Positions 6,629 to 13,594 of a stretch of DNA of 64,000 bases are shown here, in pieces. A model generated the notes under the pieces. That model was not told the DNA's origin. It ran no database searches and worked only from the letters and a program-made list of their open reading frames with translations. Source of the stretch: Gammaproteobacteria bacterium. Its GTDB lineage: Bacteria > Pseudomonadota > Gammaproteobacteria > Burkholderiales > Rhodocyclaceae. A program made the position numbers and the translations under genes. The stretch lies in assembly GCA_029289235.1 (NCBI GenBank), contig JARFTZ010000038.1, forward strand, positions 1-64,000, read 5' to 3'. The first letter of the stretch is position 1, and the number at the start of each line of letters is the position of its first letter.

Positions 6629-6783
6629 GTTGTATTTATGGAGGTGCCGTGTCGCTGACACTACAATACGGCGATGTTATAGTCAGCCCGCCGTCGGGAA
6701 CGTTCCCTGGCGATGTCTGCCGTGAGTTCCCTTCGTAACGCATCGTGCCCGTGCTTGGGCGTCATTACCGGGTCATTCGAATC

Positions 6784-7173
6784 ATGTGGAAGTCGATTGT
6801 GGCGGTGTCTTGCGGCGCTGCGCTGGGCGCCCTGTTGCGCTGGCAACTTGGCGCGCGCTTGAACGCCCTGTTTCCGACCATCCCTCCGGGAACGCTGGTC
6901 GCCAATCTGCTCGGGGCGTATGTCATCGGAATTGGTATGGCTTTCTTTTCCGCCTTTCCGGCCATCTCACCAGAGTGGCGTCTGCTCATCGTGACCGGCT
7001 TTTGCGGCGGGTTGACGACCTTCTCGACGTTTTCTGCCGAAATCGCCCTGCTTTTCCAGCAGGGGCAATTGCAGTGGGCGGCGGCCGCCGTCGCCGGCCA
7101 CGTCGCCGGATCGGTGCTGATGACGCTGGCAGGGATCGGAACAGTGGCGATGCTGAAGATTTTTTTTTCGTGA
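6784..7173 (+). CDS. crcB: Fluoride channel CrcB/Fluc
   Basis: This 129-residue protein has four hydrophobic segments and both Fluc signatures: [14 protein letters not shown] (residues about 38-51) and [15 protein letters not shown] (about 75-89), the latter carrying the Phe/Thr/Ser ion-track residues. Fluc dimers export fluoride passively across the inner membrane. ATG 6784 gives the family's normal length; an upstream in-frame start adds 13 residues unlike Fluc. It is followed 21 bases later by a DUF190 gene. I see no fluoride riboswitch upstream. Confidence 0.9.
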
Positions 7174-7194: not shown

Positions 7195-7542
7195 GTGGAA
7201 GGCATATTCCTGCGGTTTTACGTCGAGGAGAACCAGCGTCACCAGGGAGTTCTTCTCTGGGAATGGCTGCTGGAGAAGGCCAGCGATCTGGGTGTGCGCG
7301 GCGGGTCGGCGTTTCGCGCGATCGGAGGTTTCGGCCGGCGTCACATGGTGCACGAGAGCAAGTTCTTCGAGTTGGCCGGCAGTGTCGTCGTCGAAGTTGA
7401 ATTCGTGGTAAATGAACGCGAAGCGCAGGCGTTGACGGCGATCGTGCGGGACGCAGGAATTCGCGTGTTCTATGCGCGTATCCCGGCTTTTTTTGGCGTC
7501 ATCAATCCCGATGGTGACGATGCGCCGGGCATCGCGGAGTGA
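7195..7542 (+). CDS. DUF190 family protein
   Basis: This 115-residue protein has the DUF190 pattern: an initial strand (EGIFLRFYVEENQRHQGVLL), then a segment with GGSAFRAIGGFG, and a final FYARIPAFFG. It resembles small ferredoxin-fold, PII-like proteins and is probably cytoplasmic. GTG 7195 follows a GGGAGG ribosome site. DUF190 genes are frequently found beside crcB, so a supporting or regulatory role in fluoride export is inferred. No catalytic residues are evident. Confidence 0.8.
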   Translation: MEGIFLRFYVEENQRHQGVLLWEWLLEKASDLGVRGGSAFRAIGGFGRRHMVHESKFFELAGSVVVEVEFVVNEREAQALTAIVRDAGIRVFYARIPAFFGVINPDGDDAPGIAE

Positions 7543-7625: not shown

Positions 7626-7631
7626 TATAAT
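7626..7631 (+). promoter_or_regulatory. TATAAT -10 element upstream of the enolase gene
   Basis: A perfect TATAAT sits 55 bases before the enolase ATG in the gap after the DUF190 gene, implying that enolase has its own sigma70-type promoter. No strong -35 is visible at the ideal spacing. The region further upstream is GC-rich. Confidence 0.45.
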
Positions 7632-7686
7632 CACGGCCTTGTGTTTTCTGAAGTACCTTTTTCAACCTCTGTCATGGAATCCCAAA

Positions 7687-9153
7687 ATGGCCACTGTCGC
7701 TAAAGCTGCCAAAGCCGCAACACCCAAGAAAGCCGTTCCCGCAAAGAAAACTGCTCCTGCCGCCAAGGCCGCTCCGGCCAAAAAAGCTGTCCCCGTCGCC
7801 AAGGCCGCTCCGGCCAAGAAGGTCGCTGCCAAGCCTGAAGCGACGTTCGTCAAGATCAGCAAGGTTGTCGGCCGCCAGATCCTCGACTCGCGCGGCAACC
7901 CGACCGTCGAAGTCGACATCCTGCTCGACAACGGTTTCCTGGCGCGTGCCGCCGTTCCGTCGGGGGCGTCCACCGGCGAGTTCGAAGCGTGCGAACTGCG
8001 CGACGGCAACAAGAAGGTTTATCTCGGCAAAGGCGTGCTGAAGGCGGTTGAAGCCGTCAATGGCCCGATCGCCAAGCTGCTCAAGGGCAAGAACCCGCTC
8101 AAGCAGCGCGAGCTCGACGACGCGATGATCGCACTCGACGGCACCAGCAACAAGTCGAAGCTCGGCGCCAACGCGCTGCTCGGCGCTTCGATGGCCATCA
8201 CCGTTGCTGCTGCTCAAGTCAGCAAGATGCCGCTGTGGAAGTACATCGCCAAGCTGCACAAGAACAAGGAATTCGTCCTGCCGACGCCGATGGCCAACAT
8301 CATCAACGGCGGCAAGCATGCCGACAACCTGATCGACTTCCAGGAATTCATGATCATGCCGGTCGGCGCCAAGACCTTCTCGCAAGGCTTGCAGTGGATC
8401 ACCGAAGTGTTCCACGCGCTGAAGGGCATCCTGAAGAAGGGTGGCCACGTCACCGCCGTCGGCGACGAAGGCGGCTTCGCCCCGAACCTGACCAACGACC
8501 AGGCGCTGGAAGTCGTCATGGAAGCGATCAAGGCCGCCGGCTACAAGCCGGGCAAGCAGATCGCCATCGCGCTCGACTGCGCCTCCTCCGAGCTGTTCGA
8601 CGAAGGCGGCCGCAAGGGCTACAAGTTCTGGAAGTCGAATCCGGACAAGCTGTTCACGGCCGACGAAATGATCGCCATCTACGAAGACTGGTGCAAGAAG
8701 TACCCGATCGTCTCGATCGAGGACGGTCTGGACCAGAGCGACTGGGAAGGCTACGTCAAGTTCACGCAAGTGCTCGGCAAGAAGGTCCAGATCGTCGGCG
8801 ACGACTTCTTCGTCACCAACCCGGTTCGTCTGAAGCAGGGCATCGAGATGGGTGCCGCCAACGCGATCCTGATCAAGGTCAACCAGATCGGCACCGTGAC
8901 CGAAACCCTGGATGCCATCAAGATGGCCCAGCAAGCAGGCTACGGCGTCATCTCGTCGCACCGCTCGGGTGAAACCGAAGACTCCTTCATCGCCGACCTC
9001 GCCGTCGGTACCGGCGCTGGCCAGATCAAGACCGGTTCGCTGTCGCGTACCGATCGCGTCTGCAAGTACAACCAGCTGATTCGCATCGAAGAGCAGCTCG
9101 CTGCCAAGGCCATCTACAAGGGCCTGAAGTCGATCAAGGGCGCCGGCTTCTAA
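7687..9153 (+). CDS. eno: Enolase with a Lys/Ala/Pro-rich histone-H1-like N-terminal tail
   Basis: Enolase converts 2-phosphoglycerate to phosphoenolpyruvate in glycolysis. The core from about residue 53 is complete: [16 protein letters not shown], the PSGAST loop, [21 protein letters not shown], the catalytic lysine in LIKVNQIG (residue 397) and [10 protein letters not shown]. Bacterial enolases are usually about 425-435 residues; this one is 488. The extra first ~50 residues contain 13 Lys, no acidic residue, and repeats of APAKKA/AAPAKK type seen in H1-like and AlgP-like proteins. ATG 7687 is the likely start; a GTG further upstream (7639) would only add more. The gene is not beside pyrG, the common betaproteobacterial site, so it may be a second enolase. 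A strong terminator follows. Confidence 0.9.
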
Positions 9154-9167
9154 GAGCCAGCGTTACC

Positions 9168-9197
9168 AAAAAAAGCGGCCTTCGGGCCGCTTTTTTT
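9168..9197 (+). terminator. Rho-independent terminator after enolase
   Basis: A seven-base-pair stem (AGCGGCC / GGCCGCT) with a TTCG tetraloop is preceded by A's and followed by seven T's. The A-run on the other side lets it also end the convergent minus-strand dehydrogenase gene, whose stop is at 9206. Confidence 0.92.
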
Positions 9198-10946: not shown

Positions 10947-11516
10947 TCAGGAAAATCCGGGTAGCCAGCCGGAGGCGGCATGGAAATCCCGGGTCGTGGG
11001 TTCCAGTATTCCCTGAAAAAGCGCCTCGATGACCGGCGGCTCGCGCCACGGTTCGTCCATGAAGCGCAACCCGGCTTCTTCTACCAGCGCGCCTTTCCAG
11101 TAGTGGCCGGAGACCTCGTCGAGCGTTGTCAGGTTGAGGCTGTGCGGCAGGCGGAGGTAATCGAGCCAGGCGGAGTCGTGAAACGACACGACGTAGTCGC
11201 CCTTGCTGCGGGCGGCCACCAGGTGTTTTCCGTGAACCCGCGTGGGGTGTTTCGCCCGGAAGTTCTCCGCGTCCACGCGTGTGGCGAACAGCAACAGGGC
11301 ATGCAGCCGGCTGGGAAAATCCTGGAAGAGGCGCTGCCGATAGTATTCCAGGTGATACTCGGCGAAGTAATTCTGCACGGTAGTGAAATGGTCCTCGGGC
11401 AGGGCGACGCCGAAGGGATTCGCCGACAGAATGTCCCAGCCGGGAATTTCGGCCTCCGGGGCCAGCCAGGCGTAGAGTTCCAGCGGGGTGGAGTCCTTGA
11501 ACAAATGACCGTTCAT
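10947..11516 (-). CDS. Uncharacterised protein translationally coupled to feoB
   Basis: This 189-residue protein is soluble, with no signal peptide or membrane segment. I do not recognise a family. It begins MNGHLFKDSTPLELYAWLAP and is rich in aromatic residues (LEYYRQRLFQDFP; WLDYLRLPHSLNL), with several conserved-looking His/Arg positions. Its ATG overlaps the feoB stop (ATGA), so it is co-translated with the iron transporter. It could be an accessory or regulatory factor for FeoB, but nothing in the sequence proves this. Confidence 0.65.
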   Translation of the reverse strand: MNGHLFKDSTPLELYAWLAPEAEIPGWDILSANPFGVALPEDHFTTVQNYFAEYHLEYYRQRLFQDFPSRLHALLLFATRVDAENFRAKHPTRVHGKHLVAARSKGDYVVSFHDSAWLDYLRLPHSLNLTTLDEVSGHYWKGALVEEAGLRFMDEPWREPPVIEALFQGILEPTTRDFHAASGWLPGFS

Positions 11517-13594
11517 GCAGGGGCGAGAAAACGGATGGTTTCCAGCAGAAGACGAATGGCACCGGCCATCAGCAACGCCGTGACAAGCGAACTCATCACA
11601 GAGAACCAGGCTTCCTTTCGGCCCAGGGTCTTGATCATGACGGCAAAGGTCGACAGGCAGGGCACGTAGAACGTCAGGAAGATCAGGAAGGTGAAGATCT
11701 GGACGTGGTCGAGCAGCAGCGTGATTTCCTGGGTTCCCAGGGCCTGAAAGATCATCAGCAGGGAGAGTTCCTTGCGCAGGACGCCGAAGAGGATGGGAAC
11801 GCCGAGCGCGACGGGCAGACCGAGCCACCAGCCGGTGATCGGAGTGAGCACGGTGTTGATCAGGGCGTCGGCGCCAAAATGGCCGAGCAGGGCGAGGACG
11901 ATACTGCCGGCGACAAGCAGGGGGGTGACGATGGTTACGATGTCGCTCGTTTGTTCCCAGGTATTGCGCCAGAGCGTATTCCAGCGAGGAAGGGAGTAAG
12001 GGGGGATCGCCTGGACGAAGCCCGGCGCGCTGTCGGCGAAACGGCGGGAGAGCAGTTTGCCGAGCACGGCGATGACGACAAGCGTGAGCATGAATATGGC
12101 AAATACGCCGAGGCCGCCAAGGTATTTCCCGCCGATGGCCAGAATGATTGCCGAGCGGGCCGAGCAGGGAACGAAAGTGATCAGGATGGCCGCGACCACC
12201 TTTTCCCGCCGCGAACCGCTGGCGGCCGCTGCGGAAATCGCCGGCACGTTGCAACCGAGACCGATCAGGAAGGGAACTGCGACGCCGCCGTGCAGGCCGA
12301 TATGATGGAAGCCTCGGTCGACGACGAAGGCGACACGGTGCATGACGCCGGAGGCTTCGAGCGCCACCAGCAAAAGCACGAGCGGGAGCATGTAGGGCGC
12401 GACGATGCCGACCAGTCCGACCAGTCCGTCGGCAACCGCGCGTCCGACAACGCCGAGCGTGGATTGCGGCTGCCATTCCTGCACCCACGCCGCGAGCCGT
12501 GCCGACGTCCACGAGTCGATCAGCGCGCTCATCTCGAAAACGATCAGCAGAACCGTGGCGAATACCAGCAGGCTGCCGAAGAGGCCCCAGCGGGGGTGGA
12601 GAAACAGCTCGTCGAGCCAGCGTCGCCAGCCTTCGCCGGATTCCGGACTGCGGGGGCTGCTGACCGCCTCATGGAGCATGGCGGCACGATGGTGGCGGTC
12701 GGCGTGCAGTTCTTCCGCGAGCGGTCGTGGCAGCGCTTTCCCGGCAGAGGTGCGAGCTTCGGTGATTTCGCCTTGCAGTCCGGGAAAACGGGTCGTCAGC
12801 GATTGGAGAAAGTAGTCGTCGTTTTCAGCGAGCTGCGAAAGCAACAAGGCGCGGGGGATGCCGAAGACGTCTTCGATCTCCGGCCGCGCGATCACCGCAT
12901 TCAGCGGCCGCAGCGCATCCTGGATGTGCCGGGCCGGTGGTTGCGGCAGGGGGCACGATTTCTCGCGGGCTACGGCAAGCACCGTCTCGAACAGCGCCGC
13001 GATGCCCTTGCCCATGTGCGCAATTGTCGGAATCACGGGGGCGCCTACCTTCTCCCCCAACGATTGGACGTCGATGTAAATGCCGCGCTTGCGCGCCTCG
13101 TCGACGCGGTTCAGCGCGATGACCAGAGGTCGCCCGAACTGGTTGAGCTCAAGCGTGAGCTCGAGATCGCGTTCGAGCGCGGTGGCGTCAACGACCTGGA
13201 CGAGAACGTCCGGTGCCGGAAAGTCCGGGCGCCCGGAGTTGTTGTCCGGCGACGGCGGTTCAAGCGGCCAACGGTCGCCCCAGAGCAGATACATCAGCAC
13301 CACCTGGTCGTGTTCGCTAAGGTGATGCAGGGTGTGGATGGACGGCAGGTCGACCAGCGATATCTGTTCGAGACCGACATCGACAACGCACTCCTGGTAC
13401 GCTCCGCCGAGGCCGGCGAGATGTTCATGGCTTACGACCGGACTCGACGCTCCCTCGAAGATGGTGCTCTTGCCTGCGCCGTGCCGGCCGATCAACGCGA
13501 CCCGCGGTCGGCGGGCGCCACGCAGCAGGGGACCGCGCAACGGCTTCGCCACTGCAGCTGCGGCCTTTTTCGCGTTCCGGTGATTGGCTGGCAT
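11513..13594 (-). CDS. feoB: Ferrous iron transporter FeoB-like, divergent G motifs
   Basis: This 693-residue protein has an N-terminal G domain, a helical spacer and a C-terminal membrane domain with Gate segments (GLGCNVPAISAAAASGSRR; TFVPCSARSAIILAIGG; FYVPCLSTFAVM). FeoB imports Fe2+ across the inner membrane. The G domain departs from the norm: P-loop GRHGAGKST (residues 36-44) instead of GNPNSGKT, G3 DLPSIHTL where DLPG is expected, and G4 NRVD rather than N[KM]xD. About 25 extra basic residues precede the P-loop, so a later start is possible. No feoA is adjacent. The membrane Cys residues are kept, so transport is plausible but nucleotide handling may be altered. Confidence 0.85.
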   Translation of the reverse strand: MPANHRNAKKAAAAVAKPLRGPLLRGARRPRVALIGRHGAGKSTIFEGASSPVVSHEHLAGLGGAYQECVVDVGLEQISLVDLPSIHTLHHLSEHDQVVLMYLLWGDRWPLEPPSPDNNSGRPDFPAPDVLVQVVDATALERDLELTLELNQFGRPLVIALNRVDEARKRGIYIDVQSLGEKVGAPVIPTIAHMGKGIAALFETVLAVAREKSCPLPQPPARHIQDALRPLNAVIARPEIEDVFGIPRALLLSQLAENDDYFLQSLTTRFPGLQGEITEARTSAGKALPRPLAEELHADRHHRAAMLHEAVSSPRSPESGEGWRRWLDELFLHPRWGLFGSLLVFATVLLIVFEMSALIDSWTSARLAAWVQEWQPQSTLGVVGRAVADGLVGLVGIVAPYMLPLVLLLVALEASGVMHRVAFVVDRGFHHIGLHGGVAVPFLIGLGCNVPAISAAAASGSRREKVVAAILITFVPCSARSAIILAIGGKYLGGLGVFAIFMLTLVVIAVLGKLLSRRFADSAPGFVQAIPPYSLPRWNTLWRNTWEQTSDIVTIVTPLLVAGSIVLALLGHFGADALINTVLTPITGWWLGLPVALGVPILFGVLRKELSLLMIFQALGTQEITLLLDHVQIFTFLIFLTFYVPCLSTFAVMIKTLGRKEAWFSVMSSLVTALLMAGAIRLLLETIRFLAPA

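Follow-up and report, generated by a model that had tools for sequence, protein, structure and literature searches.

A lysine-rich N-terminal tail on a probably transferred enolase: anatomy, origin and candidate function

Why would a glycolytic enzyme carry a lysine-rich tail of the kind known from histone H1 and AlgP, where did such an enzyme come from, and what might the tail do? These questions are raised by an enolase gene (eno) in the window, the whole 64,000-nucleotide stretch of DNA analysed here, which belongs to a bacterium of the Rhodocyclaceae. The features of the locus are collected in Table 1.

Table 1. Features at the tailed eno locus, in window positions
Feature	Position	Strand	Remarks
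crcB, fluoride exporter family	6745..7173	+	PF02537; upstream of eno
DUF190 protein	7195..7542	+	PF02641; between crcB and eno
TATAAT, -10-like box	7626..7631	+	not in the consensus-scan listing
Leader ATGGAATCCCAAA	7674..7686	+	directly 5' of the start ATG; weak ribosome-binding-site-like GGA
Enolase N-terminal tail	7687..7845	+	53 codons with 13 K, 1 E and no R; period of 18 nt
Enolase core, residues 54-488 and stop codon	7846..9153	+	TIGR01060 638 bits (cut-off 300); active-site motifs intact
Terminator-like hairpin and T run	9168..9197	+	3' of eno; read from sequence

A basic tail on an enolase core

The open reading frame at 7687-9150 begins with ATG at 7687 and translates without interruption into 488 aa. 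Besides TIGR01060, the profiles PF03952 and PF00113 also scored above their cut-offs, and the enolase active-site motifs were located, with the key residues invariant in 19 sequences of the window's genus and 40 diverse enolases; the catalytic residues are taken by us to be H211, E220, E261, D297, E345, D372, K397, H425-R426-S427 and K448. Judged by profiles and active-site motifs, the window protein is a full enolase. AlphaFold2 with a 40-row alignment returned an overall pLDDT of 87.9 and values mostly of at least 88 in the core, and residues 1-40 were modelled as coil with ten-residue mean pLDDT of 45-59, a tail being present in only one other row of the alignment.

The first-pass annotation had described the first 50 or so residues as holding 13 lysines and no acidic residue, as a histone H1/AlgP-like tail on an enolase, and as absent from ordinary enolases, and all three descriptions held, the last among the matches looked at. 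Residues 1-50 consist of 21 A, 13 K, 7 P, 5 V, 3 T and 1 M with zero D, E or R, and the first acidic residue is E51. The tail, which precedes intact active-site motifs, is Lys/Ala/Pro-rich, repeated and predicted to be disordered, a composition that places it with histone H1/AlgP-like tails, and an 18-nt (6-aa) period runs through the DNA beneath it, with units such as PAKKAV, PAKKTA and PAAKAA. Among 49,645 overlapping 50-aa stretches, taken from stop-to-stop frames of 100 codons or more in all six frames of the window, a count of 13 or more K with neither D nor E occurred in six overlapping frames, all of them at the enolase tail. The core motif was found in 77 of the 80 matches listed (L063, L065 and L090, without the motif, were left out); one of the 77 is the enolase of Accumulibacter sp. 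SCELSE-3, and among these listed matches none of the 76 others had a K-rich tail by eye.

PAKKA repeats as a shared targeting code were also considered. The usable 6-aa pattern KKxx[PA][AV]KK had two matches in the genome, the enolase tail and one other place, so the tail does not belong to an obvious genome-wide code; no other PAKKA-type proteins sharing such a code were found with this exact 6-aa DNA pattern, and AlgP- or PhaM-like proteins with single-Lys KPAA units may still occur in the genome. A 429-aa open frame also runs antisense through eno (7672-8961, minus strand); codon bias and GC content most likely account for it, and it is probably not a gene.

It is very probable that the cell produces the tail which the reading frame predicts. 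In all 19 loci of the genus that were read, a TATA-like box precedes the tail ATG by 38-66 nt (TATANT in 17, TACAAT in L019 and TATGAT in L022), the leaders of the genus carry TGGA or TGGG 10-14 nt before the ATG, and the frame continues from leader through tail into core at each of the 19 loci. In the window, the ATG inside the leader does not share the frame of eno, and several relatives possess a possible in-frame ATG four codons earlier, giving MESK- or METK-. Loss or frameshift of the tail in close relatives, which the first-pass annotation had named as grounds for rejection, was not seen: all 19 genus loci that were read have an open tail containing lysine, and since the length changes never break the frame, the tail is most likely read as protein. 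The hairpin behind eno is visible in chance Rfam alignments and missing from the consensus-scan listing.

Hosts, native enolase and origin

The genome was checked for a second, conventional eno, and one was present. This copy is untailed, about 55-56% identical to the tailed one, and stands in the order pyrG-kdsA-eno-ftsB, in which pyrG and ftsB were assigned by Pfam and kdsA is presumed from its position. The earlier remark that the tailed gene lies away from pyrG is correct, the neighbour of pyrG being the conventional copy.

Of the 28 genomes assigned to the window's genus, 20 have the tailed-type enolase (counting G008, whose copy is split over two contig fragments), among them 13 of the 17 high-quality ones; it was not found in the other eight, some of which are incomplete and four of which belong to the 17. 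One other genus of the family possesses the same enolase type in 23 of 28 genomes, 21 copies being near-complete and those of G252 and G264 partial. Across 199 genomes from 68 genera of the family, matches at E <= 1e-155 were confined to these two genera, and at class level (369 genomes, E <= 1e-160) only the window's own copy and one 60%-identical enolase appeared. A tree of conventional eno genes covered 21 of the 28 genus genomes, including five of the eight without a tailed match: G012, G020 and G024 formed one branch, G004 (86% complete) was placed with strong support beside gene-bearing genomes, and the position of G009 was left open. The patchy distribution fits best with loss, or with missing contigs, after an ancestral gain.

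Identification of the two genera relied on 16S probe sites. The 16S gene was not found in the window's own genome and was found in 11 of the 28 genomes searched. The Accumulibacter probe PAO651 showed two to three mismatches in 18 positions in six members of the window's genus (G005, G006, G007, G009, G010 and G026), and in the other genus it matched exactly in G075, G135 and G272 and with one mismatch in G212 and G254; the probe Acc470 was exact in G272. The accessible part of Albertsen et al. (PMC4930944) gives the PAO651 site as present in Accumulibacter and missing in Propionivibrio aalborgensis. With confidence, the other genus is Accumulibacter, a name which the same probe sites reject for the window's genus; the latter is probably Propionivibrio, as judged from the probe sites of its relatives. 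The second name is used here as a probable one because of probe coverage, 16S overlap and misses of the Propionivibrio probes. PAO651 covers 70.9% of Accumulibacter 16S sequences in SILVA plus one Propionivibrio sequence in the portion of PMC10958769 that was accessible, and PAO probes are said to target Propionivibrio in that of PMC12604563. The identity of 16S separates the genera poorly, G010 being 97.7% identical to members of both, and neither Prop207 nor Prop470 had an exact match in the 11 genomes with 16S. The enolase of Accumulibacter sp. SCELSE-3 (L034) has the same core and tail as that of G267, a genome of the other genus and perhaps the same genome.

In an enolase tree of 93 hand-picked rows, the tailed copies of both genera grouped with Fibrobacterota-type enolases with support of 100/100, and this assemblage adjoined spirochaete and planctomycete copies with about 80% support. 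The conventional clade (98/88) excluded the tailed enolase, which did not group with the pyrG-linked eno of its order. A search of 120 Fibrobacterota-group genomes yielded 19 matches at E <= 1e-165; the nine nearest are 72-83% identical to the window enolase and the ten others 63-67%. The nearest of all, from G365 (83%; L169/L189), has the short start MAKVAAPKSVKISKV (MAKVAAPK) and the same C-terminal KSIKGAGF as the window enolase. Its contig has neighbours unlike the window frames and a GC content of 0.52 versus 0.605, and one neighbour resembles a family that we assume to be typical of Fibrobacteres.

These relationships suggest that the tailed eno was probably transferred horizontally from a Fibrobacterota-type source, the direction being read from the nesting, and that its acquisition probably preceded the split of Propionivibrio and Accumulibacter. 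Sequences from the window's genus do not form a single clean clade in the tree, so several transfers, or a transfer between Propionivibrio and Accumulibacter, may have occurred. The G365 enolase may represent kin of the donor or a back-transfer, the latter being conceivable because its placement inside the group is not settled. Taken alone, this account of the origin and anatomy of the tailed enolase is very likely to be right.

Codon usage bears on which of the two enolases does the work. The effective codon number (Nc) was lower for the tailed than for the native eno in all 16 genomes in which both copies were read, reaching 27.9 versus 49.7 in the window genome, a comparison in which Nc is a proxy and is confounded by the different GC3 of the two copies. 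The value for the tailed eno was the lowest among 47 non-overlapping window ORFs of at least 200 aa. In addition, the native eno was not found in G011 (92% complete) and G023 (96% complete), where only the tailed copy was seen. The codon bias points to the tailed copy as the main enolase and speaks against a spare that is seldom used; this enzyme probably serves the organism as its principal enolase.

Charge and possible roles of the tail

Tails of the window's genus are all basic: the 19 read span 24-103 aa and net charges of +3 to +33, from L022 (24 aa, 3 K) to L011 (103 aa, 33 K), and their 1028 pooled residues include 268 K, a single R and 8 D/E. A different pattern was observed in Accumulibacter, in which tailed-type enolases (L034:5953-7335 and L122-L143) bear charge-balanced Lys/Glu tails. 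The 23 tails read there (those of L034 and L132 being identical) are 19-41 aa long with net charges of -2 to +2, and they have a basic beginning, for example MAKAEKVKKAK, followed by an acidic part; no description of them was found in the accessible portions of the open-access literature searched. The cores follow suit: their net charge is +2 to +9 in the window's genus, lies close to 0 in Accumulibacter, with a mean of -0.7, and is -19 to -27 in the 16 native enolases compared. The whole-protein pI is 9.1-9.8 for the tailed enolases of the window's genus and 4.5-4.8 for native ones. Because some Fibrobacterota-type cores reach +15, the basic enolase was probably inherited, and its charge was then probably enhanced in the window's genus and neutralised in Accumulibacter.

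The preferred reading, to which an even chance is given as a whole, is that of a transferred principal enolase whose disordered tail holds part of the enzyme on polyanions. An eno from a Fibrobacterota-type source would have entered, most simply, the common ancestor of Propionivibrio and Accumulibacter and joined the native eno, and its short N-terminal extension would then have been enlarged in the window's genus by growth of tandem 18-nt repeats into a Lys/Ala/Pro tail. If the window enolase is a dimer or octamer, as enolases are, a particle would bear two to eight tails, amounting to +24 to +96 for the window tail, and an abundant oligomer with one tail per subunit could act as a multivalent polycation that binds polyanions by avidity. 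Part of the enzyme would thereby be held reversibly, most likely on nucleoid DNA or RNA and possibly on polyphosphate, and the acidic native enolase would remain soluble. Accumulibacter is a polyphosphate hyper-accumulator, and nucleic acid is ranked first because this sister genus has neutral tails. Such tail-mediated binding is inferred from composition and charge; as a precedent, the KPAA domain of AlgP binds DNA and is required for the even spacing of polyphosphate granules (PMC9239181, in its accessible part). The wide variation of the tail in length and charge counts against an anchor, and a strong, conserved binding is not demanded, as the tails vary and the Accumulibacter enolase keeps a neutral one.

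The same variation favours a serious alternative, a possible though rather unlikely one, in which the tail arose by repeat slippage as a disordered extension under loose constraint, with no specific partner and at most a role in solubility or spacing. It accounts readily for the 18-nt repeats, the large range of lengths, the neutral tail in Accumulibacter with almost none in Fibrobacterota-group genomes, and the frequent nonsynonymous changes in the tail; a codon-level test of lysine constraint was weak, as repeat tails align poorly, and counts here as a hint. What it explains less well is that 19 of 19 tails are basic with so few acidic residues and a single Arg in the pooled 1028, although one step would turn a Lys codon into one for Glu or Arg, and that such repeats are uncommon, the KKxx[PA][AV]KK pattern being confined to its two genome sites. 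A bolder form of the preferred reading, in which a histone-like tail has made a glycolytic enolase chromatin- or RNA-associated and two oppositely charged enolases, with pI of about 9.4 and about 4.5, work at different sites with the foreign one dominant, appears doubtful.

The neighbourhood of eno could instead indicate a fluoride-tolerance unit, in which CrcB exports fluoride, an extra and possibly less sensitive enolase serves as a backup and the tail is incidental. Of the 16 genus loci with 1.39 kb or more of upstream sequence, 12 have the order crcB-DUF190-eno, while other neighbours changed: when 17 further window frames were compared with six genus relatives, only one, for an ABC-type ATPase, was matched, and its two matches were weak (27-28% identity). 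The order is missing in four of the 16 (L005, L009, L017 and L022); three further loci have shorter flanks, with DUF190 visible in L021. No crcB was found before the tailed-type eno in 23 Accumulibacter loci or in G365. Control of eno by a fluoride riboswitch was rejected, since none was found at the locus in a permissive Rfam search or among those 150 of the genome's 664 first-look candidates that were scored. Together with the eno gene's own conserved TATA-like box, this makes the fluoride unit a minority reading, and the strong codon bias, which suggests constant high expression, also speaks against it; it is improbable. The accessible part of PMC5533749 describes a fluoride-resistance operon of Enterobacter cloacae FRM that likewise has an extra eno near crcB, but differs in being under a fluoride riboswitch, of which none was found here, together with ppaC, uspA and gpmA. 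Farther along the window, a 693-aa frame (11513-13594, minus strand) looks by eye like a FeoB-type GTPase transporter.

Less probable still is a specific tether of the glycolytic enzyme to polyphosphate granules, an idea raised by the first-pass annotation and weakened here. In the accessible parts of the respective papers, AlgP offers a similar composition (PMC9239181), lysine-rich stretches bind polyphosphate (PMC12077175; PMC12345225), and E. coli enolase is among the degradosome members tested in polyphosphate-Hfq condensates (PMC11839049). Against this, the neutrality of all 23 tails read in the hyper-accumulating Accumulibacter argues against a conserved role in polyphosphate binding, and Propionivibrio aalborgensis is described in the available portion of PMC4930944 as a glycogen accumulator without Pit, with Ppk kept. 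A translation start at the core, with no tail made at all, is scarcely credible, as no supporting point was found, 18 of 19 genus loci have no Met between the tail start and the core motif (the sole internal tail Met is in L011, in a count of Met codons), the TATA-like box and leader lie directly before the tail ATG, and the tail frame is preserved through many length changes.

Significance and relation to known systems

If the tail binds polyanions, the preferred reading would provide an example from nature of a main enzyme of glycolysis being anchored in space, in relatives of bacteria that cycle glycogen, PHA and polyphosphate. In addition, a foreign copy has likely taken over a core housekeeping function in two wastewater-relevant genera. 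The question of why an enolase should be tethered is directly testable, because controls are built in: the neutral-tail enolase of Accumulibacter and the acidic, untailed native enolase of the same genome.

Enolase and H1-like tails are each known, and their union was not found in the accessible portions of the open-access literature searched, where no report of a tailed enolase was seen (PMC12766714, PMC12604563, PMC7986553 and PMC11839049 included). The core as a whole is that of a Fibrobacterota-type bacterial enolase (TIGR01060), with its active-site motifs and the identity to its nine nearest relatives given above; the window protein differs from these in its 53-residue basic tail and in its betaproteobacterial host, which also possesses a native eno. 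The second enolase of Candidatus Accumulibacter (e.g. SCELSE-3, L034) shares 80-90% local identity and an extension starting with MAK, and differs in a shorter tail with roughly equal numbers of acidic and basic residues and in having no crcB-DUF190 upstream. The tail itself resembles AlgP of Pseudomonas aeruginosa and the C-terminal domain of PhaF, which likewise have a disordered Lys/Ala/Pro repeat of histone H1-like composition. In AlgP the repeat is C-terminal, its KPAA units making up 154 aa of a small protein whose N-terminal domain is helical, according to the accessible part of PMC9239181, whereas the window tail is N-terminal, is built from 6-aa units with KK doublets and is carried by a metabolic enzyme.
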